From assembly GCA_946411215.1 (NCBI GenBank), contig CAMKDH010000003.1:1-36500 (forward strand): DNA of 36,500 nucleotides. The letters are read 5' to 3'. Positions 6,461 to 36,500 of this stretch are shown one piece after another (within the stretch, counting starts at the first letter, position 1; each line of letters starts with the position of its first letter). The position numbers and the translations under genes were made by a program. This stretch comes from an uncultured Treponema sp. GTDB taxonomy: Bacteria > Spirochaetota > Spirochaetia > Treponematales > Treponemataceae. The notes below the pieces were generated by a model. It saw nothing but the letters and a program-made list of their open reading frames with translations, did no database searches and was not told where the DNA came from.

Positions 6461-6528
6461 GTCCCAACCCTTTGTTAAATATTATCACAATAAAGGCTTT
6501 TTCGCAAATATAATATGCCTTTATCATA

Positions 6529-6660
6529 GAAAACAGCTGGCTTCCGCGTAATCGTGTCAGCAAACTACTGCTAGCGCTGTATGGTAAACCATATATCTCG
6601 CTTCGCTCGGCAGCGCTAGATGTAGTTTCCTGCCCCGATTCCGCTCCACCATCTGTTTTC
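6529..6660. repeat. 132-nt palindromic element, copy 1
   Basis: Starts GAAAACAG and ends CTGTTTTC; inner arms CTAGCGCTG/CAGCGCTAG; central ATGGTaaACCAT hairpin. Confidence 0.9.
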
Positions 6661-6708
6661 AAGTGTTTTTTATAAATATTTTCCGCAAATATAATATGCC
6701 TTCATATG

Positions 6709-6840
6709 GAAAACAGCCGGCTCCCGCGTAATCGTGTCAGCAAACTACTGCTAGCGCTGTATGGTAAACCATTTTTCTCGCTTCGCTCGGCAGCGCTAGA
6801 TGTAGTTTTCTGCCCCGATTCCGCTCCGCCATCTGTTTTC
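6709..6840. repeat. 132-nt palindromic element, copy 2
   Basis: Same length and near-identical to copy 1, exactly 180 bp downstream. Confidence 0.9.
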
Positions 6841-6955
6841 AATCTATTTTAATATAATATTTGCGAAAAAGATTTATTTAAAAAAAACTAAACTCACCCA
6901 TGATAAACACCGAAAAACAAGTATAAAACCTATAGTGTGTTTATGGGGTGTAATT

Positions 6956-19869: not shown

Positions 19870-21996
19870 ATGAAAAAACAGTTGTCTGCATTTTTTATAA
19901 TTTTGTTTTCTCTTTTTTGTATATCCTGTGACAGTATACTTGCAGACAAGTTAAATGAAAAATTCAACTTAACCCCTCCAATATATCTTTCTTATAAAAC
20001 AGATTACGGAAAAGCGCCAAGCCGTGTTACAATTACAAAAGGCGATGTTATTACAGAAGAAATGCTTCCTTCTGTTGCGTACGTAAACAATAACGGTTCA
20101 TCGTATTATTACTATGACGGCCAATACTATTATTATGATGATGACGAAAAAACCTTTGTGGGCTGGTATTATGATGATCAGTATACACAGGAAGTTCATG
20201 TTGGCGATGTTATTGAAGGTGCTTTAACGTTGTATGCCAAATGGTCAGATTCCTATGTGTATGTATATTATAATTTTTATTCAGATTATGGATACTATTC
20301 TCACTCGGATCGGATAAAGGTTGGTACAAAGCTTTCTTCTGATAACTGGTATTATCCTAAATATGACTTTTCAAGCGATTATGAATTCACTGGCTGGTAT
20401 TTAGATGTGGGGTACCAGACCTCCGCTGAAGGTTATGTTGTAACATCTGATATATACTTATATGCAAGTCTTTATCCAAAATATTATTATATAGATTATG
20501 TTACTTCATATTATTGTGACCCGTTGCCACAGGGAGCTGTACGTCGCGGCGAAACGCTAAGTTCATCTGAGCTTCCAACTCTTTATCCATATTCAGAGTA
20601 TGATAATATGGAATTTGAAGGCTGGTATTATGGCTCTGCTTGTGAAGACAGAGCAAATGTAGGTGATGAAGTAACAGGCAATATTACACTTTATGCAAAT
20701 TTTGTGCCAAGATATTATACAATTACGTATGAAACTTTTGGATGGGCAACTACTCCTGAAGACAGGATTTTATATAAGGGTGAGGAATTTACTTCATCAT
20801 ATCTTCCAGATCTAGTTTCAACGTATAATTCCATGAGATTTTTGGGATGGTATTTTGATTCTGAATGTGAGGTGTATCCTGCAAATGCGGGACAGATTAT
20901 AACTAGTGATACACGTTTATTTGCAAAATGGGAAACTATACCATCAACAAATATAGTAGAATATTGGCTTTATGATTTTGATGTATCAGACGAGTGTATG
21001 ATTTTGAATGAATATACTCACCTGGATGATGGCGGTGAATATTCTACTCCATCATATTTTGCAAATGAATTTTACAGGCAGGTAGGTGACGATTACGCAT
21101 TTTATGAGAGTTATACTTTTGATGGAGTAGAGTATTGTAATGTTAGCGTGTATAGAAACCTGTATTGTCATACTTTTGTTAGCGCCGAAAATTTGTGGAA
21201 GGTTCTTGAAAAATTTCCTATATTCCCGGATACGTCCCAATTTCAAAATGCTGTAAGTGTAGCAATAAACGATGTTAATCCAGATATGTCTGTGGTTGCT
21301 TCTGCAATTGCAGATCATAATAGAATGCAAAATTATTTAAGATTGAATTTAAGCAATTGTATCGAATTAACAGAGATTCCTGATAATTGTTTCGCGAATG
21401 AATTTTACTTAAAAGCAATTGTTCTGCCTGAATCTATTCAGACTATTGGAGAGGCTGCATTTAAATACTGTTCTGCATTGGAAGATACAGGCATTCTTTG
21501 GCAGAATTTAACAACAATTGGTGAAAGTGCTTATGAATATTCAGGACTTAAATATATAGAATTACATCGTTGTAATAGTCTTACAATAATTCCAAAAAAT
21601 ATGTTGGCCGGATGTTCTGCTTTAGAGACTGTTTTACTGCCTGAATCAATTCAAACTATTGGAGAAAATGCATTCCAGTCTTGTCAAAATCTTAGCAGCA
21701 TTCAGATTCCTCGTTATGTTACTCAAATAGGTGAACGGGCTTTTAGTGATTGCCTGCAATTAACCGAAATCGAAATTCCAAATGGTGTTTCAACAATCCC
21801 TCAGTATTGTTTTTATAATGATACTTCACTTAAGACAGTAATACTTCCTTCAACAATTACTTTGATAGAAAACTTGTCTTTCTATAATTGCCCTCTTGAA
21901 AATGTTTATTTCTATGGAACTGAATCCCAAAAAGATGGCATTACAAATTACGACACAACAATTTCTTCAGTTAATTGGGATTGTAATTATCATTAA
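19870..21996 (+). CDS. Lipoprotein with InlB-type repeats and BspA-like leucine-rich repeats
   Basis: LFCISCDS lipobox; FVGWYYDDQYTQEVHVGDVIEGALTLYAKW repeats; LLPESIQTIGENAFQSCQNLSSIQIPRYVTQIGERAFSDC LRRs. Confidence 0.9.
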   Translation: MKKQLSAFFIILFSLFCISCDSILADKLNEKFNLTPPIYLSYKTDYGKAPSRVTITKGDVITEEMLPSVAYVNNNGSSYYYYDGQYYYYDDDEKTFVGWYYDDQYTQEVHVGDVIEGALTLYAKWSDSYVYVYYNFYSDYGYYSHSDRIKVGTKLSSDNWYYPKYDFSSDYEFTGWYLDVGYQTSAEGYVVTSDIYLYASLYPKYYYIDYVTSYYCDPLPQGAVRRGETLSSSELPTLYPYSEYDNMEFEGWYYGSACEDRANVGDEVTGNITLYANFVPRYYTITYETFGWATTPEDRILYKGEEFTSSYLPDLVSTYNSMRFLGWYFDSECEVYPANAGQIITSDTRLFAKWETIPSTNIVEYWLYDFDVSDECMILNEYTHLDDGGEYSTPSYFANEFYRQVGDDYAFYESYTFDGVEYCNVSVYRNLYCHTFVSAENLWKVLEKFPIFPDTSQFQNAVSVAINDVNPDMSVVASAIADHNRMQNYLRLNLSNCIELTEIPDNCFANEFYLKAIVLPESIQTIGEAAFKYCSALEDTGILWQNLTTIGESAYEYSGLKYIELHRCNSLTIIPKNMLAGCSALETVLLPESIQTIGENAFQSCQNLSSIQIPRYVTQIGERAFSDCLQLTEIEIPNGVSTIPQYCFYNDTSLKTVILPSTITLIENLSFYNCPLENVYFYGTESQKDGITNYDTTISSVNWDCNYH

Positions 21997-22053
21997 TAGA
22001 CTATATTATTCAAATTAACTAAAACAAAAATCTCATTTAATAAAGGATTCTTT

Positions 22054-25000
22054 ATGACACACTCTACTCATTTATTTTCAAAAATCACAACATCCATTTG
22101 CATGTTTGCTTTTTTCCTGGTTTTTGCAGCATGTAGTCCTCAGACAATCCAGTTACAGCCTGAAGAAATTGAAGTTAGTTATACTGTTGAACACTGGCAG
22201 CAGAATGTTAGCGGAAACGGCTACGGAAATGAACCTGTTCTTACAGAAGTTTTATCAGGAATGACAGGTTCTTTCACAAATGCCATGACTAAGAATTATG
22301 AAGGCTTTGAAGCCAGAAATTTTGATCAGATAAAGCTTGCACGAGACACTACAACAATAATCAAAATTTATTATGACAGAAAATCAATCGAATATACCTT
22401 TGACGCAGGTGAAGGAAAGTTTGTCCACGGCGAATCAACCAAAACAGTAACCGGCCTTTATGGCGCCAGCGTTACCGCTCCTGATAATCCCCAGAAAGAG
22501 GGGTTTGATTTCGTTGTCTGGGATGAAACAGTTCCAGAAACTTTCGGCGCAGAGAATAAAACTTTTACTGCGTCATGGACACAAAAAACTTCTCAGGGTG
22601 AAGATGAACAGGGAGAAGGACAGGGAGAAAATCCTGAAAATCAAGGGGAAAATCCTGAACAGAATCAACAGACAACTGCAAGCTATACTGTAGAACATCA
22701 TCAGCAGAAAACAACCGGAGATGGATATACAACAATTTGGGATGATACAGAAGAAAAGACGGGAACTATAGGTGCACAGACTTCTGCCACTGCAAAAACT
22801 TACACAGGATTCACAGCAAAAACAATCAAACAAGAAACTATCGCTGAGGATGGAAGTACTGTTGTAATAATTGAATATGACAGAAATATAATTACTTACA
22901 CTTTTAATGCCGGAGACGGAATGTTCGATGATAATAATGCAGAAAAAACTGTAAGCGGCCGTTATGATACGAGTGTTTCTTTTACATCAGAACCATCTCG
23001 GCTAGGATATGAATTTAATAAATGGGATAAAACAATCCCACCTTACTTTGGTACAGAAAATCTTACTTTTAATGCATTATGGTATCGTTCTGATTCAAGA
23101 TATACTGTAGAACATTATCTTCAGGATCTTGAAGGTGATGGATATACTATTCAATCAAGTGATACTGAACATACACGTACTGGATTAACAGATACTATGA
23201 CAGAAGTTCGTCCAGGACAATATACAGGTTTTACTGCAAAAACAATCGAACAGAAAAAAATTGCTGCTGATGGAAGTACTGTTGTAAAGGTTTATTATGA
23301 TAGAGATATTATTACATATACCTTTGAAGATGACCTGGATTTCACAGATGATATTGTAATAAGCGGTCGTTACGGGGCAACTGTTCCTATTCCTGACATG
23401 GCAACCACGGGGTATGATTTTGGACATTGGCTTGGATTTGTTGATCCACCTGATACTTTTGGAACATATAATAACACGTTTAAAGCTATAACGGATCCAA
23501 GATCCGATACTCTAGTTACAATAAAATATTTCAAGCAAATAATTACAGGTAATACGGATGTAGTTTATACTGTTGATGAGATAAAACAAGAGAAAAAAAC
23601 ATCTGGATTTACATTAAATTCTAGTTTTTATCTAAAAGATTGTGATAATGATTCTGAATATAAAGATTATGAATATAGTCATGAAGATGGAGATGACCAA
23701 GTCAACCCTGATGGAAGTTCTGTTTTAAATATTTACTATAAACTTAAAACACTTACTTACAATTTTAATGCAAATGGTGGAAAATGGGGTGATTCTCAAG
23801 AAATTATGCCAATAAGTGGAACATTGGGCACTCGAGTTGTGGTTCCAGAAGATCCCGTTCGAGGTGGATATGAATTCTTAGGTTGGGATCGTGAAATCCC
23901 AGTAGTATTTGAACCTCTTATTGCTGGTTGGTATGTAATTGATATTTATGGAACATGGCAGGCAAGAGGAGATATTCGTTATAAAGTAGAACATTATCAG
24001 CAGAATCTGAGCGATAATGAATATACTCATGTATCAAATGAAGATGAAGATAGAACTGGTACAACAAATTCTTCTACAGAGGCCCGAGCAAATACTTACG
24101 AGGGCTTTACTGCAAAACCTTTTACTCAAGAAAAAATAGCTGGTGATGGTTCTACAGTAGTTAAAATCTTCTATGACAGAAATAATATAACCTATACCTT
24201 TAATCCTAACGGTGGAAGTTTGAATGGTTCTCCTCAGACTCAAACTCAGACTGTACGTTATGGAACTTTAGTTCCTGTTCCTCAGGCGCCTTCTTTAAAT
24301 GGCGATTGGACCTTTGACGGCTGGTACGAAGGTCAGTTTATTGCTCCTGAATATACTCCTTCTGCTACTAATACTAGAAATATTGATGTATATGCACACT
24401 GGAAATATACTCCAAAAAATGTTCTGGGTGGTGGTATAAGCTTTGATGGAACAACCTTTACATATACTGACGAAGTATATGTAATAGACCCTGCAAAAAC
24501 AGGTGAAAACATTACAGTAATACCTGGAACTAACAAAAATGGAGTATTTATAAATAACCGTACTACAAAATTAAGTCCATTTATTATGAGTAAATATGAA
24601 GTTACACAGGAGCTTTATACTGCAGTTATGACAGGTCAGACTGTTACAAAAGATGGTAAAACTTATGAACTCGATGCAGCTCCATTTAAATGTAAAACAA
24701 ATGAACATGCCGGTGATATCCAGAAATATCGCCCGGCAGACAATATCAACTGGTATGATGCCGTATACTTCTGTAATGCTCTTTCAGAAAAACTTGGACT
24801 TACAAAACCTTATGAAATAACTGATATTTTAGTTATTAATGGTCATATAGAACATGCAGATGTAACTCTTGTTCCTGGTGCAAACGGTTACCGTCTTCCA
24901 ACAGAAGCAGAATGGGAGTTTGCCGCACGCGGTGGAAATCCTTCTGACGAAACTAACTGGAATTACACTTATAGTGGAAGCGATGCTATTAATAAAGTAG

Positions 25001-25290
25001 GCTGGGCTAATGAAACCTCTGGAACTCACCAGGTTGGAAAAAAGGCTCCTAACTATCTTGGAATATATGATATGAGCGGAAACGTATATGAATGGTGTTA
25101 TGACTGGCAGGACGGAATTTACCAGGGAGAAGTTACTGATCCAACTGGAGGAACTCTGCAGAATGTAAAGGTTTTCCGTGGAGGTGGATACACTGATGAC
25201 GGATTATGTAGAGTCTGGCAAAGACAATATCAAAGACTTACCTTGAGATATCAAGAATCAGGTTTGCGACTTGTTCGTTCTGCCCAGTAA
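22054..25290 (+). CDS. Lipoprotein with InlB/MucBP-like repeats and C-terminal formylglycine-generating-enzyme (SUMF1) fold domain
   Basis: FLVFAACSPQ lipobox; repeated YTVEHYQQN...GFTAKTI...DGSTVVKIYYDRNIITYTFNAG; C-terminal MSKYEVTQELYTAVM...INWYDAVYFCNALSEKLGL...GYRLPTEAEWEFAARGG...DMSGNVYEWCYDW...VFRGGGY. Confidence 0.93.
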   Translation: MTHSTHLFSKITTSICMFAFFLVFAACSPQTIQLQPEEIEVSYTVEHWQQNVSGNGYGNEPVLTEVLSGMTGSFTNAMTKNYEGFEARNFDQIKLARDTTTIIKIYYDRKSIEYTFDAGEGKFVHGESTKTVTGLYGASVTAPDNPQKEGFDFVVWDETVPETFGAENKTFTASWTQKTSQGEDEQGEGQGENPENQGENPEQNQQTTASYTVEHHQQKTTGDGYTTIWDDTEEKTGTIGAQTSATAKTYTGFTAKTIKQETIAEDGSTVVIIEYDRNIITYTFNAGDGMFDDNNAEKTVSGRYDTSVSFTSEPSRLGYEFNKWDKTIPPYFGTENLTFNALWYRSDSRYTVEHYLQDLEGDGYTIQSSDTEHTRTGLTDTMTEVRPGQYTGFTAKTIEQKKIAADGSTVVKVYYDRDIITYTFEDDLDFTDDIVISGRYGATVPIPDMATTGYDFGHWLGFVDPPDTFGTYNNTFKAITDPRSDTLVTIKYFKQIITGNTDVVYTVDEIKQEKKTSGFTLNSSFYLKDCDNDSEYKDYEYSHEDGDDQVNPDGSSVLNIYYKLKTLTYNFNANGGKWGDSQEIMPISGTLGTRVVVPEDPVRGGYEFLGWDREIPVVFEPLIAGWYVIDIYGTWQARGDIRYKVEHYQQNLSDNEYTHVSNEDEDRTGTTNSSTEARANTYEGFTAKPFTQEKIAGDGSTVVKIFYDRNNITYTFNPNGGSLNGSPQTQTQTVRYGTLVPVPQAPSLNGDWTFDGWYEGQFIAPEYTPSATNTRNIDVYAHWKYTPKNVLGGGISFDGTTFTYTDEVYVIDPAKTGENITVIPGTNKNGVFINNRTTKLSPFIMSKYEVTQELYTAVMTGQTVTKDGKTYELDAAPFKCKTNEHAGDIQKYRPADNINWYDAVYFCNALSEKLGLTKPYEITDILVINGHIEHADVTLVPGANGYRLPTEAEWEFAARGGNPSDETNWNYTYSGSDAINKVGWANETSGTHQVGKKAPNYLGIYDMSGNVYEWCYDWQDGIYQGEVTDPTGGTLQNVKVFRGGGYTDDGLCRVWQRQYQRLTLRYQESGLRLVRSAQ

Positions 25291-28591: not shown

Positions 28592-31500
28592 TTGCGTTCA
28601 GATGATGTTAAGCGTGAAATTGAAGAGACAATTGCTTATAATAACGCAAAAGAAATTCCAGTTTTTATCCAAGCTCAGGAAGGTTCAGGTTCTACAGTTC
28701 CAAAAGACAATCATATTGCAAAAAAAGGTTATGCCTTTGAAATAAGTTTTTCAGAAAATCCTGCCTATAGCTTTATTAAATGGACAGCCGTTTCCAAAGA
28801 TGATAATTCCAAAGCAATTACAGATGGTGTAGAATTTGAAGATGCAACCGCTCTTAAAACTAAAGTAACAATTACTAATGATACTCAGGCAATTCAAATT
28901 ATTCCTGTCTGTACACAGAGAATTACTGTTTCTGGTGAACCAAGTCCTCGTTATGATCCTCTAGGAGTAAGCAGAGACAGAGCCATCACAGTAAGCTTTA
29001 CAAAACCTTTAAAAGAAACAAATTTTATTTTTTCCCAAAATGAAATTCCTGCTTCTGCACAAGTAAAACAGGATAATGCAGGAAACATATGGGCATATAC
29101 TTTAGAAGGACAAACATATTTAAAAAATATTTCAATAACAAATATAGATGACTATTCAATTGCAGAACATTTTACCTGTCCTGTAATTAACGGAAATCTT
29201 CTTACAATTGAAACAGACAAAACAAATCCGATATCTTTTAATTCCAGCGAAATCTTTAAAACGGTAAAAGTCACTTTAAGTAAAGATATTGTTGATATTG
29301 ATGGTATAAAGATGAACTCATCTAAAACCTGGAATTATCAGATAACCGAAGCAACTGATGAAAAAGCAACTGTAAATCTTACAAGCGTTGCAGCCGAAGG
29401 TTCTGTGTATCTGGCTGGAACAAAAGACTATTCAATTGGTCAAAAACTTTCACTTGCTTTTACAGAAGATGCTGATTATCAGTTCGTAAAGTGGGTTTAT
29501 GATAATTCCATTGTTTATATTGCGGAACCTTGTAGTGCAAATACAACAGCAACAATACTTGAAAAAACAACTCCAGAAAATCCTACTCAAATAAAGGCTG
29601 TCTGTGCTCCTCGTCTTAGAGTTACAGCTTTTAGTCCTATAAATAACAGTTCAAATCCTACGGTATGTAAAAATTCTTCTATAATAATTACTTTCAACCA
29701 CAATTTGTCTGATAATGCAGAAGATCTTTTACAGCTTCAGAATATTTCAATTGCTCTTGGAGGTTCCCCTGTAAATACCTGTTTCAAAGCTCCGGTTTTA
29801 CAAGATAATACAGTAACCTTTATTGCAGATAATTCGAATATGCTTTCTGTTCCTGCTGGTCAAACAAAAACAGTTACTGTTTCTATTCCTGCCGATTTTT
29901 ACTATAGACTTGATGATGAAAACAAAACCAAAATAACTTATGGTGCCAACGGCGTTTTGTTTGATTATAAAATTGATGAAACAACTCTTAATAAAGCAGA
30001 AATTACTTTCACAGCTGCAAGCGGTTCTGGTTCATTAACAAAAGCTTCCGGTACTAACCAATATTCAATAGGGCAGGAAGTACCAATTTCGTTTGAACCT
30101 GCAGCAGGCTGGAAATTCAACGGTTGGACTATTACCAGCGGAAATCAACCTGTTGAAGAATCAAAAATTTCAATAGCAGATAAAGATTCCCTTTCTACAA
30201 AACTTACAGTTTATGAAGCTCTACAAGGTGTAACGGTTACGGCTAAAACAAGTGAATGTCTTTCAGTTAGCTCTGTTAGTCCTCGCTTACAAAGCAATCC
30301 AAAGGATTCAGAAATTGTAATTACATTTAATAAAACTTTGGATGCTAATTGCAGTAGTTTGCTCGATAAAATTATTATTGATTCTTATGATGGAAAACTT
30401 GGAAATTATTACACACAACGAACTCTTTCCGATAAAACAATCACGATTAAAAATACAGTTCCCATTTCTGTTCCAAAAGGAAATCAAAAAATTATAACAG
30501 TAACAGTTCCTTCTGATTTTTATTATGTAAATGACGGTAACAAAATAAATCTTGAAGAAACATCTTTTAGTTTTGTTGTTGATTACACAACAATTGCAAA
30601 ATCAAAGGTTCATTATACGCTTCTTAATGGAGAAACTAATTCTACTTTTGCCGAAGGCATTTCAGGCGGAACTATAAATCACCAGTCTTACGAAGAATAT
30701 AATATTGGAGAGGAAGTTGCGCTTTCTTTTGAACCTGCAGCCGGATATCAGTTTTATACCTGGAAGCTTCTTGATTCTCAAGGAAATGATGTAATCAATC
30801 AGATATCTTATAAAGATACATTCAAAGCTACTGATAAACAGCCAACAGTTGTTATGAATGCGGCAGAGGAACTTTATATAAATGTAGTCTGCTATAAACG
30901 ACCTGTAATTTCTACCGCAACTGTAAGTCCATATAAAGAAAATCAGGCCGACGAAGTTCCAAAGAATACACCTATTATTCTTACCTTTGGACATGCAATA
31001 AATCCTGCAACAAAAGATGAAATTATTATAAATTATTCTGCAATATCAAATTTTCTGAAGTCTGATTATTTTACTACTTCTATAAGTAGTGATTATACAA
31101 CAATTACTTTGACTCCTAAAAAAATGCTGCCTGTTGACCATGCTTACGAAACTGTGACTGTAACTGTTCCTCACAATGACATTTATTATTCTGTTGCAGG
31201 TGGCGCACAAAAAATTACTCCAGCCGATTCTGATTTTACCTGGTCGTATAGAGTTAATTCTTCGACAATTACAAAAACAATTGTGCGAGTAGATTCTAGT
31301 GATGCAAAGGCGAACTCATTAACTGTAAATGGTGCAGTTATTTCAAGTGGTGCAACACAGGTTCTGAATGTAGAACAGAGTATGAATATTGAATATCCAT
31401 TGGAAGATGGGTATCTGTTCTGTGGTTGGAAAATTGTTCCTGCTACAAGCGGTTACACTGTAGTACCAAGCGGATATGTAAAAAGTGGTGATATAGAAGT

Positions 31501-34500
31501 AAAAATCGGTAACAAAACTTACTTTATATTACAGATACCTGATTCTGAGAATCATCCTGAAAAAGCTATAATAAAATCTAATGATGCAATTGCCAATGGT
31601 TCTGCCAATTATGCAATCACTGTTTCTGCAAAAGACTTCTTGATTCCAAAAGTGACTTCAAAATTACCTGAATATGTTTCAGCTGGAAAAGATTGCGATT
31701 CCGAAATCTGTATAGAATTTAATAAAGAAATGAATAAGGAAAATCTAAATCTGTATTCTACAGCAACTAATGCAGATAATCGTAATGCGACAATACAAAT
31801 TGTAGATGCTTCAAATCCAAACGAGCATTACGAAAGTTATTTTAATGCACCTGAATGGACAAATAATACTTTGAAAATCAAACCAAAAAAAGAAATACGA
31901 TCTCTTTTGTCTGGAGAAAGTGATTTAAAAAATATAAAAATTATATTTGATTATACCAAGATAAAAGATATTGACGGTATTGTCCTTAATAGCGATCCTT
32001 CGTGGATATATAGAATAAATTATGATATGGAGAAAATTGCCCCGGCTGTATCAGGCATGAAAGTTTCTAAGCCGCAGTTTGAACTTGCAAGACACCAGAC
32101 TTCTGATGGAAATTATGAATATTATGCCAAAGAAAAAAAATCTGCCTCAGATTTACAGGAATTATCAAACACGACTTTCACAAGTTTTGTTAACAATACT
32201 TATAAGCAAAACCATGTAGGTAATAAGATTTATTTTTCTGCAAGTGTGTCCGATTCTGGTTCAGGATACAAGGGATTAACTATAAAAGAAAAACGAATAA
32301 GAACAGTTGATAATGTTACTGTTTCTGAACCTTGTGCTGACTTTACATATCCAGCAACAAAAACTGTTTTTGCAAATGAGCCTTATGTTTTGCAATCGGA
32401 AAATGATGGTGTTATTCAGCTTGATTTTATCTTTGAAGATTATGCTCTAAATAACACAACTAAAACTTACTATGTAATTAGAGATACAGCACTTGATGCG
32501 GGTAGCGCAATAAAAAATCAAATGTATGGTTATTATACAACTGAAATTGGCCCTGATGGAGAACATCCTGGTGTGTTATCCTCTAAGGCTTTATATTACA
32601 AACTAAATTCGCAAGATGTTATTGCTTATTATACTGATGATAATGGCTATAGAACTGAACAGTTAAATTTTTATAGTTGTAAAGATATATATTTAACCAA
32701 TTATTCTTCACAATCTTCTACACAAACAATTACATATAAAGTGGAATATGGATATTCGAAAAATGACTTTATGACACAGGAAAACTCTGCAACTGCAACC
32801 TCTTCTATCACTGGATATTTTAATTTTACCCGAGATGTAACAAAAGATTGTTTTGTACGAATTTCTGCAATTGATGATGTAGGAAATTTTCAAAGTATAA
32901 TTCGAGTTATTCCTGCGAAAACCTCAATTTCCAATATGCAGAGAGATGGAAATTACATGAATGTATATCTGAATGGTATAGCATATAAAGATTTTAAAGT
33001 TACCGATTATGGTGCTAATAATTTTGATTATTTACTTGTTTATACATATCAAGCTGATGAAACTTCTACACCAACAGAATTTAGGGCAAGAATGTCTAGA
33101 AGTATGGGGGATATTGCTAATTTAGGGGGGTATCATAGTAGCGATAGATTTGCAATTACAAATACTGCTTTGGAAGTAGAAGATCAGCCTGATTTTTTTC
33201 CTGACGGAATATATAAATTCTATGTCCTGCCATGTTATTGCTATTCAGAAACTTCATTTTTTGGATGTCTTTCTGATCCTTATACCTTGTATTATAATTA
33301 TACTCCTCAAAATCAAGGTGGAGGAACAGATCCTGAATCTCCAAATCTGCCATCAAGTTTTACTTTAACGAATATTCAGCATCCTGTAAGTACTGGTTAT
33401 CATACTGCATCTGTAGAATTCCCTGAAGGATTTACTCCGTCTGCGAATTTTTCTTATGGAGTAAAATACAAAAAGCAGAATACTTCAAAATATGAATATG
33501 GAGAATTAAATTTTGGAACCCAAAGTGGCAGTAAATATGATGTATCTATTTATGCAAAAGATGCAAATGGAACAATATATGAACCAGATCCTGCTTATTC
33601 TGTTGAACTTGATGCTACTTATGATAATATACCCCCTTCTGTTAATGTAAAAAATTCCTGGAATTCTTTATTTTCTTCTACTCCGAATAAAATTCACCTG
33701 GGGAATTTTTCTTCTGTTGCAAACTCTATGCCTTCTGACACAGGTGGGGCTGGCATGTACGTCAATGAGGATGGTTTAATACAATTTGATTATTATCTCA
33801 TAAAAAAAGAAACTGCGGGATATTCTTCGCATGAAGAAATAACAAGAGATAAACTTGTAAATTTTCAAAAGCATACTTTTTGTTATACACCAGGAACAAC
33901 ACGTTTAGCATTGGATTGGGATTCTTTTTTGGAAGGCTATTATATTCTTGTACTGGATTTAAAAGATAACAATGATAATTCTGCACTATATAGTTATGTC
34001 GTTATGAATATTACAGAACCTGGAATACCAAAAATCTGGGTAGCCGATTCTAAAATGTATGTACAGGCCTTGAAAACACACTCCTCATATTCCGGTTATA
34101 TTTATAGACTACAAAATGATACATGGTCTAACCGTAGTGCTTTTGAAGGGCAGGCTATGACTAATAATGGAATGGATAATAGAGCTTATGGTTTTGGTAC
34201 TCCAAAATACTTTTTTAAATGCTCGGTTTATAATGGTGCAAAGAATTCTTTATATGCCTTTGTTTATCCTAACTATTTTGACCGATTAAATAAGGGTGAA
34301 AATGTTTCTTGTTCAAGCAAAGCGGTAATTCCTGGTTTGTCAGATTCATATCAGGTTTTCTATGATGCACCTTGTTTTGCGCATACAATGGCGTTCCCAA
34401 CAGAACTGCTTGCAGAAATTGACTCCAAGACAGATGCTGCCCTTGTATATGATACTACACTTGATAGAAAAACTGCCTATACCGCAGTTTGGGAAACAAA

Positions 34501-34681
34501 GGGTAGGGAATACGGTCTAAAACTATTGTATGGCGGTGAATCAGATGCAAACAATAGCTGGTTGCAGGGTAATACTACATATATTGCCCCTGTAAATGAG
34601 ATTCCTTCCGGCTTCTCCTATGTAACAGTTTTCCATTTTGCCGACGGAACCACAGCCATGAGCGACGTAAAGCAGAAGTAG
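28592..34681 (+). CDS. Giant repetitive surface protein (2029 aa in the open frame); probable lipoprotein whose start at 28500 is out of frame in this sequence
   Basis: Repeats such as SVSPRLQSNPKDSEIVITFNKTLD (Big_5-like) and YSIGQEVPISFEPAAGWKFNGW. Signal peptide MKNKLSLLKTTILLLGGG begins at 28500 and LLALSSLISCDN lipobox is in the downstream frame; the frames join at a G tract. Confidence 0.85.
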   Translation: MRSDDVKREIEETIAYNNAKEIPVFIQAQEGSGSTVPKDNHIAKKGYAFEISFSENPAYSFIKWTAVSKDDNSKAITDGVEFEDATALKTKVTITNDTQAIQIIPVCTQRITVSGEPSPRYDPLGVSRDRAITVSFTKPLKETNFIFSQNEIPASAQVKQDNAGNIWAYTLEGQTYLKNISITNIDDYSIAEHFTCPVINGNLLTIETDKTNPISFNSSEIFKTVKVTLSKDIVDIDGIKMNSSKTWNYQITEATDEKATVNLTSVAAEGSVYLAGTKDYSIGQKLSLAFTEDADYQFVKWVYDNSIVYIAEPCSANTTATILEKTTPENPTQIKAVCAPRLRVTAFSPINNSSNPTVCKNSSIIITFNHNLSDNAEDLLQLQNISIALGGSPVNTCFKAPVLQDNTVTFIADNSNMLSVPAGQTKTVTVSIPADFYYRLDDENKTKITYGANGVLFDYKIDETTLNKAEITFTAASGSGSLTKASGTNQYSIGQEVPISFEPAAGWKFNGWTITSGNQPVEESKISIADKDSLSTKLTVYEALQGVTVTAKTSECLSVSSVSPRLQSNPKDSEIVITFNKTLDANCSSLLDKIIIDSYDGKLGNYYTQRTLSDKTITIKNTVPISVPKGNQKIITVTVPSDFYYVNDGNKINLEETSFSFVVDYTTIAKSKVHYTLLNGETNSTFAEGISGGTINHQSYEEYNIGEEVALSFEPAAGYQFYTWKLLDSQGNDVINQISYKDTFKATDKQPTVVMNAAEELYINVVCYKRPVISTATVSPYKENQADEVPKNTPIILTFGHAINPATKDEIIINYSAISNFLKSDYFTTSISSDYTTITLTPKKMLPVDHAYETVTVTVPHNDIYYSVAGGAQKITPADSDFTWSYRVNSSTITKTIVRVDSSDAKANSLTVNGAVISSGATQVLNVEQSMNIEYPLEDGYLFCGWKIVPATSGYTVVPSGYVKSGDIEVKIGNKTYFILQIPDSENHPEKAIIKSNDAIANGSANYAITVSAKDFLIPKVTSKLPEYVSAGKDCDSEICIEFNKEMNKENLNLYSTATNADNRNATIQIVDASNPNEHYESYFNAPEWTNNTLKIKPKKEIRSLLSGESDLKNIKIIFDYTKIKDIDGIVLNSDPSWIYRINYDMEKIAPAVSGMKVSKPQFELARHQTSDGNYEYYAKEKKSASDLQELSNTTFTSFVNNTYKQNHVGNKIYFSASVSDSGSGYKGLTIKEKRIRTVDNVTVSEPCADFTYPATKTVFANEPYVLQSENDGVIQLDFIFEDYALNNTTKTYYVIRDTALDAGSAIKNQMYGYYTTEIGPDGEHPGVLSSKALYYKLNSQDVIAYYTDDNGYRTEQLNFYSCKDIYLTNYSSQSSTQTITYKVEYGYSKNDFMTQENSATATSSITGYFNFTRDVTKDCFVRISAIDDVGNFQSIIRVIPAKTSISNMQRDGNYMNVYLNGIAYKDFKVTDYGANNFDYLLVYTYQADETSTPTEFRARMSRSMGDIANLGGYHSSDRFAITNTALEVEDQPDFFPDGIYKFYVLPCYCYSETSFFGCLSDPYTLYYNYTPQNQGGGTDPESPNLPSSFTLTNIQHPVSTGYHTASVEFPEGFTPSANFSYGVKYKKQNTSKYEYGELNFGTQSGSKYDVSIYAKDANGTIYEPDPAYSVELDATYDNIPPSVNVKNSWNSLFSSTPNKIHLGNFSSVANSMPSDTGGAGMYVNEDGLIQFDYYLIKKETAGYSSHEEITRDKLVNFQKHTFCYTPGTTRLALDWDSFLEGYYILVLDLKDNNDNSALYSYVVMNITEPGIPKIWVADSKMYVQALKTHSSYSGYIYRLQNDTWSNRSAFEGQAMTNNGMDNRAYGFGTPKYFFKCSVYNGAKNSLYAFVYPNYFDRLNKGENVSCSSKAVIPGLSDSYQVFYDAPCFAHTMAFPTELLAEIDSKTDAALVYDTTLDRKTAYTAVWETKGREYGLKLLYGGESDANNSWLQGNTTYIAPVNEIPSGFSYVTVFHFADGTTAMSDVKQK

Positions 34682-34694
34682 CAGGGGATTGAAG

Positions 34695-35483
34695 TCAAAC
34701 TAAAAATTGATTTATCATTCTTTCTACTTCTTTTACATCTAGAGGAGTTTGTTCTGTTTCCATTGTGATAATCAGGTTGTTGCCAAGTAGTATACCAGTC
34801 CTGGAATATTCACTTATACGCCGTGTCATGTTTGTTGTGTAGTCCGGATCATCCATGCGGCCGCAATGTTCCCAATAAAACTCCTTACGTGTCCTAGGGT
34901 TGAGACATAAAAAGTCTACATGAAAGGTTGCTCCATTTTTCATGTGAACAGGGTACTCGTAATGGTAGGGGATGTTCTTCTCCTTCAAAAGGTTTGCAAT
35001 AATTACTTCTGATTTTGAACGCATGGGTTCATTTTTGAAGGAAACTAGATTTCCCTCTGGGGTTTCTTTTTTATGTTCATATTCTTTATTTTGCCAGCGA
35101 AGTGCATATTCTTTGTTGTTCACAAAAAGTGGTGTTACAAGGAGTTTCCGTGCCTGGGGCAGACTGGAATAGCAGTTTATTAACTCTAGAGGTTTGTAGG
35201 TATTTATAAAATTGTCTAGCGCGGAGAGATTTGTTTTGAGGGTGTCAAGAAGCTTTTTGTTATAATCACGTTGTGCGATTCCAATCGCAAGATTTCGTTT
35301 TTTCTTGTTCAAATAAAACCGTTTGTTTGGATTTCCTTCTGCAGCCATATAATATTGAAAAGTGTTGTGGCTTTTTGAAACACAAAGATTTCCTTTCGGA
35401 GGTGATTTTAATTGTTTTTCAACACCAGCGATAATTGTTGCCAGTTCTTTTTGTCTGATTTTTGCTTTTTCAAGTAATTGCAT
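34695..35483 (-). CDS. Hypothetical protein with PD-(D/E)XK-like nuclease C-terminal domain
   Basis: 262 aa; RSKSEVIIANLLKEKNIPYHYEYPV...FHVDFLCLNPRTRKEFYWEHCGRMDD has the E...D...E-x-x-x-E-H layout of PD-(D/E)XK nucleases; N-terminal coiled-coil region; SD AGGAGAT upstream. Confidence 0.7.
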   Translation of the reverse strand: MQLLEKAKIRQKELATIIAGVEKQLKSPPKGNLCVSKSHNTFQYYMAAEGNPNKRFYLNKKKRNLAIGIAQRDYNKKLLDTLKTNLSALDNFINTYKPLELINCYSSLPQARKLLVTPLFVNNKEYALRWQNKEYEHKKETPEGNLVSFKNEPMRSKSEVIIANLLKEKNIPYHYEYPVHMKNGATFHVDFLCLNPRTRKEFYWEHCGRMDDPDYTTNMTRRISEYSRTGILLGNNLIITMETEQTPLDVKEVERMINQFLV

Positions 35484-35509
35484 TTGTTTTATCTCCTTTT
35501 TGATCCAAT

Positions 35510-35906
35510 TTACGTGAATTCCTCTTTGAAAGTGATAAACCTCATGTAATTGCAGATCCTATTCTGCTTCTACATCCAATTAATTACGTGACATTTTCTA
35601 CAGATTTTGTGAAACTCACGTAAAACCAAGCCCCTAATGAACATATCAGGTTAATGATTATGTCTATCAATTCATTAATTCCTCAAAATTACGTGAATAT
35701 TCCGTTGTCTCCAACAGAGTTCACGTAATTACAATTCCAATGCCTGTATTAAGTATTTCCAATTACGTGAGTTTCACTTTGAAAGTGTCAAAACTCACGT
35801 AAAACTCCTTGATTTGAAAATCAATACAGCTACTATTGAGTGTTTAAAAACTCCAATTGTCTTTGGTTACGTGAGTTCTCCTCCTGAATAAATCTTTCTC
35901 ACGTAA
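35510..35906. repeat. Array of five TTACGTGA-N24-TCACGTAA inverted-repeat units
   Basis: Units at 35510-35549, 35584-35623, 35689-35728, 35763-35802, 35867-35906; nine of ten arms exact (35542-35549 is TCATGTAA); inter-arm spacing exactly 24 bp in all five. Confidence 0.97.
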
Positions 35907-35920
35907 CCTAAAAAACTACA

Positions 35921-36000
35921 TATATAATATGGCAAAAAAAGTGGACTTCTTACAAAAATTTGAGAAAAAAAAGGCATTATTTTACAAAAAAAGATTTGTT
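35921..36000 (-). promoter_or_regulatory. Putative leftward promoter block reading into the inverted-repeat array and the PD-(D/E)XK-like gene
   Basis: Reverse complement CTCAAATTTTTGTAAGAAGTCCACTTTTTTTGCCATATTATATATG matches the block upstream of the Rpn gene (13333-13413). Confidence 0.5.
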
Positions 36001-36145
36001 CTATACGAAACGCGTGCCCAAAGTTCACCGGGAGCCTTTTTTTCTAATTGAATTTTCTTTATCTTTTCGATATTATGTAAAATTGTAAAATCGGGGCGAA
36101 AGTTTTTCGATTTTTACGACTTTTATTGTATTTAAGGATTTTTTT

Positions 36146-36394
36146 ATGACTATTACACAAATGCTTGGTCAGAGCGGACTTCTGACATTGCTTGGAATGT
36201 GTGTTGTATTCAGTTTTATCATCATCCTGATTATCTGCATGACTATTCTCAAAGCTGTTATTCATGCGCTTAAGCTTGATAAGGACAAACCTGCTGACAC
36301 ACCTGCGGCTTCTTCTCCGGCTCCTGCTGGAAATGATGGGGCTATTGTTGCTGCTATTGCGGCTGCCGTACACGACAAGGCATTAAAATCATAA
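36146..36394 (+). CDS. oadG: OadG family sodium-pump decarboxylase gamma subunit
   Basis: 82 aa; single N-terminal TM segment and Ala/Pro-rich tail, directly upstream of an oadA-like start; SD AAGGA. Confidence 0.8.
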   Translation: MTITQMLGQSGLLTLLGMCVVFSFIIILIICMTILKAVIHALKLDKDKPADTPAASSPAPAGNDGAIVAAIAAAVHDKALKS

Positions 36395-36412
36395 AAAATT
36401 AGGGGAAATAAA

Positions 36413-36500
36413 ATGGCTAAAGTTGGAATTTCTGAACTTGCAATTCGTGATGCTCATCAGAGTCTTCACGCAACACGTATGACAACAGCAGATATGCTGC
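36413..36500 (+). CDS. oadA: Oxaloacetate decarboxylase alpha subunit / carboxyltransferase, N-terminal fragment (truncated by window edge)
   Basis: MAKVGISELAIRDAHQSLHATRMTTADML, the conserved RDAHQSLxATRM start of OadA/PycB; SD AGGGGA. Confidence 0.92.
   Translation, partial: MAKVGISELAIRDAHQSLHATRMTTADML

Follow-up and report, generated by a model that had tools for sequence, protein, structure and literature searches.

An array of helically phased inverted repeats beside a predicted nuclease gene of an uncultured Treponema sp.

The DNA analysed here (the window) is a stretch of 36,500 nucleotides from an uncultured Treponema sp. Near its end, a minus-strand gene for a 262-aa protein, P0001 (34695..35483), adjoins an array of five inverted-repeat units of the form TTACGTGA-N24-TCACGTAA, to which no strand was assigned (35510-35906). 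The units lie at 35510..35549 (unit 1, dyad 35529.5), 35584..35623 (unit 2, dyad 35603.5), 35689..35728 (unit 3, dyad 35708.5), 35763..35802 (unit 4, dyad 35782.5) and 35867..35906 (unit 5, dyad 35886.5). The preliminary description of this DNA had reported five units, nine exact arms and an invariant 24-bp gap, and all three statements hold: each unit was located at its position, nine of the ten arms are exact, and the interior measures 24 bp in 5/5 units. Units 2–5 are perfect, and the exception is the right arm of unit 1, which reads TCATGTAA (a single mismatch). Start-to-start distances are 74, 105, 74 and 104 bp, which, with 10.55 bp to the turn of B-DNA, makes 7.0, 10.0, 7.0 and 9.9 turns. 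The alternation of gap sizes had been noticed before, but its helical meaning, distances of about whole turns, had been missed.

A search tolerating up to two mismatches gave five matches in the window versus 0.01 expected from dinucleotide shuffles, and 0/100 shuffles attained five units, which bears out the earlier view that the array exceeds chance. Within the window genome (2.52 Mb, ~75% complete), the full arm pattern was confined to this locus rather than dispersed, and no second array with the window arms was found; a single two-mismatch match elsewhere (contig C91) looks like chance. The ribosome-binding-site region (AAAAGGAGATAAAACAA on the minus strand, read directly) occupies 35484..35509, between the last unit and the start codon. 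Upstream of the array, at 35910..35965 on the minus strand, an AT-rich promoter-like leader (TTTTTGTAAnAAGTC...TATTATATATG) is predicted from the sequence and resembles that of many Treponema members of the P0001 family. Since the array sits between this leader and the start codon, it is probably part of the transcribed 5' leader of the minus-strand gene.

The AlphaFold (AF2) model of P0001 has a pLDDT of 95. Residues 1-112 form a helix, a three-stranded sheet (32-57) and a long helix (pLDDT 94), and residues 150-262 form a PD-(D/E)XK-like nuclease domain. The best PDB matches of the C-terminal half were Bax1, R2 endonuclease, DrdV, Can2, MunI and BamHI, with weak E-values (≥0.008). Across 94 members of the family, E159 (99%), D190 (99%), E205 (100%), H206 (99%) and D211 (93%) are conserved, as is E242, and the classical K of the PD-(D/E)XK motif is absent from its usual place. 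By its modelled fold and acidic motif, P0001 qualifies as a PD-(D/E)XK-type nuclease, predicted to cleave. Neither Pfam nor NCBIfam gave P0001 an accepted match, and the family has no entry in them. For the N-terminal domain (112 residues), a Foldseek search against the PDB returned weak best matches to prefoldin-like coils, none convincing; an AP2 or integrase-arm fold, our initial guess from the sequence, was dropped, as Foldseek matched neither.

Of 200 genomes of the genus, 61 contain members of the family, and a single genome can have up to ~14 matches. Relatives also occur in Lachnospiraceae, other Clostridia, Fibrobacter and one Eggerthellales MAG (at least 561 confirmed stretches, obtained with an alignment query; the contig search with P0001 alone gave zero relatives). 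Presence is patchy, many paralogues with different arms can share a genome, and broken copies exist. The family was not found in viral contigs; three unannotated faecal phage records match it weakly, and plasmid matches are limited to the shared nuclease domain, there as part of larger proteins. Beyond orthologous loci, no recurrent neighbour genes or defence islands were found. One gap, between a helicase and a PTS gene, contains the element in G002, G156 and G186 and a partial element in G184; in G004 another gene occupies it, and in G003 it is empty. At this single empty site (G002 versus G003), no terminal repeats or target-site duplication were evident, and the empty site carries no arm. 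Four family matches (G041:C6, G143:C33, G156:C22 and G174:C364; open frames of 289-359 aa) are split near residue 195 by an extra in-frame stretch, a possible insertion within the nuclease domain. In four Clostridia loci (L131, L150, L170 and L171), the family gene lies close to guaA (GMP synthase).

We measured how often arrays accompany the gene in 138 non-redundant members with both flanks readable. A mismatch-tolerant search of both flanks found at least three units beside the gene in 110 members (99 upstream only, six downstream only and five on both sides); shuffles never exceeded one unit. Arrays went undetected in the other 28 members, some of which show one or two units by eye. With exact 6-bp arms, at least three upstream units were present in 90/138 members versus 0/690 shuffles (maximum one), and at least three units lay within 700 bp downstream in 7/144. 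These downstream arrays are not accounted for by a second family gene. In G184, the gene of a 63% identical relative is preceded by five units and followed by a long degenerate array with slightly different left arms. An unbiased scan of 836.5 kb, in which the G003 pieces had been chosen for known arrays and the G056 contig for its element, returned six arrays; a family gene adjoined three of them, and the other three were gene-less arrays already known. The same type of scan gave zero arrays in 12 shuffled 20-kb pieces. For G056 C31 this amounts to one array in 400 kb, a density that is indicative only. The preliminary description had envisaged relatives that keep the gene and lack the arms and spacing; the array as such proved to be retained, while the arm sequence is particular to each relative and the spacings differ between relatives by whole turns.

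The spacing of units follows the DNA helix. The 308 successive distances in 90 arrays fell at 62-65, 72-76, 83-86, 93-95, 104-106, 115-116 and 126-128 bp, and so on; outside these classes there were a minor class at 52 and a few unusually long distances. Nothing lay between the modes at 63, 74, 84, 95 and 105. The best period was 10.55 bp (R = 0.875, 187 per-array distinct distances), with orthologous arrays in the set not fully independent. Between orthologous arrays, distances change by roughly one full turn or a larger whole number of turns (74/83/74 versus 84/84/74 in one case). Spacing quantised in steps of 10.55 bp points to double-stranded DNA bound on one face, not an RNA or a spacer array, as expected for units read from a single side of the double helix.

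When the half-sites of the 90 arrays are aligned on the dyad, most fall into one common register: a diversified core ~13-20 bp from the dyad, then A-rich bases inward. Arm sequence varies between members. Half-site similarity correlated with the identity of residues 25-60 (rho 0.345) and hardly with that of the nuclease domain (rho 0.067). A partial Mantel test controlling for the nuclease domain gave r = 0.27 (p ≤ 0.0005, 61 members at <75% identity), the largest of 2000 permutations being 0.153. Arm-associated columns cluster in the sheet (32, 33, 36, 38, 42, 46, 53 and 55), with A70 and a few elsewhere. The simplest reading of this moderate correlation is that the N-terminal sheet contacts the arm, and each enzyme apparently reads its own short paired DNA word. 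The earlier suggestion of an array of protein-binding sites, recognised by the product of 34695-35483, is well supported by both the covariation of arms and sheet and the helical register. The array very probably consists of cognate double-stranded DNA binding sites of the adjacent predicted nuclease.

Between orthologues, arms are 90-99% identical, interiors 34-87% and linkers 32-94%. In close pairs (41 alignable units), mismatches reach their minimum, ~2%, at 11-18 bp from the dyad and amount to 14% in the central 8 bp versus 9% in the linkers (p = 0.02), a modest excess. Some units are replaced at the centre only. In orthologous units of L085/L101, L015/L054 and L089/L095, a block difference sits exactly at the dyad centre, and arms and linkers are identical; such blocks look as if they had been cut and then rewritten. 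Two loci with 95.2% identical coding sequences and ~90% identical flanks, L096 (G003:C17) and L084 (G179:C80), have unrelated interiors and linkers and have kept their arms, a contrast that, in these sequences, is one of very fast array turnover. L075 (G003:C4) and L100 (G184:C332), with nuclease coding sequences 97% identical, have one adjacent unit versus 14.

Arm changes also bear on the choice between DNA and RNA. Among 3288 paired core positions in 377 units, 122 changes were one-sided, 95 of them pair-breaking; the G-U-compatible share (22%) was not enriched. Two-sided changes numbered eight versus 1.4 expected, and seven of these stay complementary, a small excess that could come from unit duplication or gene conversion. 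Rfam returned nothing above chance over 34600-36500, and Pfam scans of P0001 and 71 members contained no Nop or Cas domain. An RNA guide or hairpin array was rejected on the helical phasing, these pair-breaking changes and the lack of Rfam, Nop or Cas matches. The small-RNA-hairpin option of the preliminary description goes with it, because a 10.5-bp phase belongs to double-stranded DNA; the dismissal, in that description, of a CRISPR (the arms are inverted and no Cas domain occurs) and of integron attC sites stands.

Arrays without a family gene were sought by exact search with two arm types besides that of the window. The TTACGGACGA arms form three arrays in G056 beyond the gene-linked one; gene-less TTCCGACAAA arrays number several in G003, two loci in G184 and one in G002. 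Such arrays occupy intergenic gaps of divergent, tandem and convergent type; the adjoining genes are unrelated, and no family gene occurs within the fetched 6-7 kb. The arrays are phased too (R = 0.964 for 33 distances; R = 0.950 for 21 per-array distinct values). Arms are common to the loci and linkers are local to each array, with hardly any interior or linker shared, so that movement of units is not directly seen. Three gene-less loci are common to different species, and this persistence at the same loci also fits selected binding sites. Among 196 genomes, TTCCGACAAA units occurred only in G002, G003 and G184 (3, 14 and 16), exactly those whose own family gene uses TTCCGACAAA arms, so that one of the two arm types with gene-less arrays is restricted to genomes with the cognate gene; a reversed control pattern gave single matches in three other genomes. 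Copy number ranged from 3 to 18 exact-pattern units per genome at a handful of loci. In L238 and L240, a gene-less array lies directly 3' of an apparent tRNA-Ser gene and is 98% conserved between two species. Viral targets were considered and set aside: the exact pattern occurred in three viral contigs as a single unit each with no family gene, consistent with chance.

We compared the system with known ones. REPIN-RAYT (TnpA-REP) systems consist of intergenic inverted-repeat doublets, some in tandem clusters in which the flanks of the doublets are repeated too; the cognate gene adjoins a cluster, and repeat flavours are enzyme-specific (PMC3116915). The likeness lies in dispersed intergenic paired repeats with a cognate linked gene, here for two specificities. 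The REPIN-RAYT enzyme is an HUH Y1 transposase, whereas here it is a PD-(D/E)XK-like nuclease, and none of 71 family members had a Y1 transposase match in Pfam. REPIN-RAYT copies run to tens to hundreds, compared with 3 to 18 units at few loci per genome here; the arms here are ~12 bp, and the spacing is strictly helically phased. The system works most like REPIN-RAYT and is not a member, because its enzyme is not an HUH transposase and its copy number is low.

Other known systems resemble it in part. EDxHD / PD-(D/E)XK homing endonucleases such as I-Bth0305I act as dimers on long sites, and the homing endonuclease I-TevI is an autorepressor that binds its own promoter (PMC3943268). Like the present family, they are compact, sequence-specific nucleases that bind DNA through a separate region and have catalytic E/D residues; unlike them, the family has no intron, intein or target gene, and has many repeated sites beside its own gene and dispersed arrays. 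The C-terminal nuclease domain is homologous to that of PDC-S68 in PADLOC (best E 2e-31, 71/71 members). PDC-S68, a helicase-nuclease, is ~1200 aa long and lacks the N-terminal arm-reading domain; the family matches only the last ~115 residues of its 1221-position profile, and plasmid proteins that match this region bear the annotation AAA or RecD-like ATPase. Plasmid partition and iteron arrays (ParR-parC and similar) also have phased sites beside the gene of the binding protein, but the present arrays are chromosomal and multi-copy, with a nuclease fold and inverted half-site pairs three turns apart. In TIGR-Tas, a compact nuclease gene lies beside a tandem array with locus-specific repeats (PMC12045711). 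The likeness is limited to the look of a locus-specific array, as TIGR-Tas has RNA-guided Nop-domain proteins and 36-nt processed RNAs, and here there is no Nop domain and the spacing is DNA-phased. A search of open-access literature found no description of such a nuclease-array system. The family is apparently undescribed and present in many gut bacteria.

The architecture, the phasing, the conserved arms and their covariation with the sheet, the gene-less arrays and the co-occurrence were all read from sequence. They suggest to us a self-maintaining repeat-plus-endonuclease system that works like REPIN-RAYT, a reading to which we give a probability of about 0.6. Each unit would comprise two ~12-bp half-sites (TTACGTGAGTTT and its complement) with 8-bp cores 32 bp (~three turns) apart. 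We infer a P0001 dimer as the likely reader, with each protomer's N-terminal sheet on one arm. Sheets so placed would bring both PD-(D/E)XK domains over the non-conserved centre and put cleavage at the dyad. With units whole turns apart, bound dimers would line up on one DNA face and could assemble into a single ordered complex. By acting at units, the nuclease may cause their amplification and spread; bound at the leader array, it may limit its own expression. That the nuclease spreads the repeats falls somewhat short of even odds in our estimate. More tentatively, the system could represent a class of genetic element that is itself new, in which a nuclease dimer, its arm-reading domain diversifying rapidly, makes, amplifies and scatters phased target arrays of its own; they would be phased since new units would form on the face held by the bound complex.

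A different, rather unlikely explanation is that the array is both operator and sequestration site: phased cooperative binding of its own leader would repress the gene and store a potentially toxic enzyme inactive, gene-less arrays would be decoys or operators, and the nuclease activity would serve, for example, defence against invading DNA. The location of the array between promoter-like leader and start codon in most members suits this, I-TevI provides an example of a nuclease repressing itself (PMC3943268), and PDC-S68, related in its C-terminus to all 71 members compared, is a candidate defence protein in PADLOC. However, a simple upstream operator is weakened by the six members with an array downstream only and the five with arrays on both sides. 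Up to 14 sites far exceed the needs of repression, unit number can be 14 versus 1 at 97% coding-sequence identity, recurrent neighbours and defence islands were not found, and gene-less arrays occupy convergent gaps too.

We consider it improbable that the arrays are dispersed chromosomal sites of a domesticated DNA-organising protein (nucleoid or partition-like) that has kept its nuclease fold for other reasons. Phased one-face arrays, gene-less arrays persisting at orthologous loci and arms conserved against a diverging background would be expected of such sites, but catalytic residues are retained in nearly all members, arrays are few (one in an unselected 400-kb stretch, though on a contig chosen for its element), gene presence is patchy and one genome can hold many differently armed paralogues. 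Still less probable is a classical homing endonuclease with the units as cleavage targets. Dyad-symmetric half-sites around a variable central gap would suit a dimeric nuclease, and dimer formation on targets of close to 60 bp is known from EDxHD enzymes, for example I-Bth0305I (PMC3943268). Against this, the sole empty site compared (G003) has no arm, and the target lies intact inside the element in many copies, not destroyed by insertion. An RNA-level array, its units transcribed as hairpins or as guides with spacers in the manner of CRISPR or TIGR-Tas, is scarcely credible: the array is probably transcribed, its units are repeated, its interiors vary like spacers and 7/8 double changes keep complementarity, but the spacing tracks the B-DNA helical repeat, 95/122 single arm changes break a pair with no enrichment of G-U changes, and Nop, Cas and Rfam searches gave no match.

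If the preferred reading of a self-maintaining repeat-plus-endonuclease system is true, a widespread bacterial system would pair a sequence-specific nuclease with arrays of its sites that follow the turn of the helix, and this would be a clean, testable case of a nuclease beside target sites that it possibly spreads. From the dozens of natural enzyme/site pairs, a recognition code could be read off directly for a sheet domain to which the PDB search found no structural match. Elsewhere in the window, two copies of a 180-bp tandem repeat (91% matches) lie in an intergenic stretch at 6498-6862. Upstream of the array gene, 28592-34681 and 19870-25290 encode very large secreted-type proteins with InlB B-repeat, List_Bact and BspA leucine-rich repeats.
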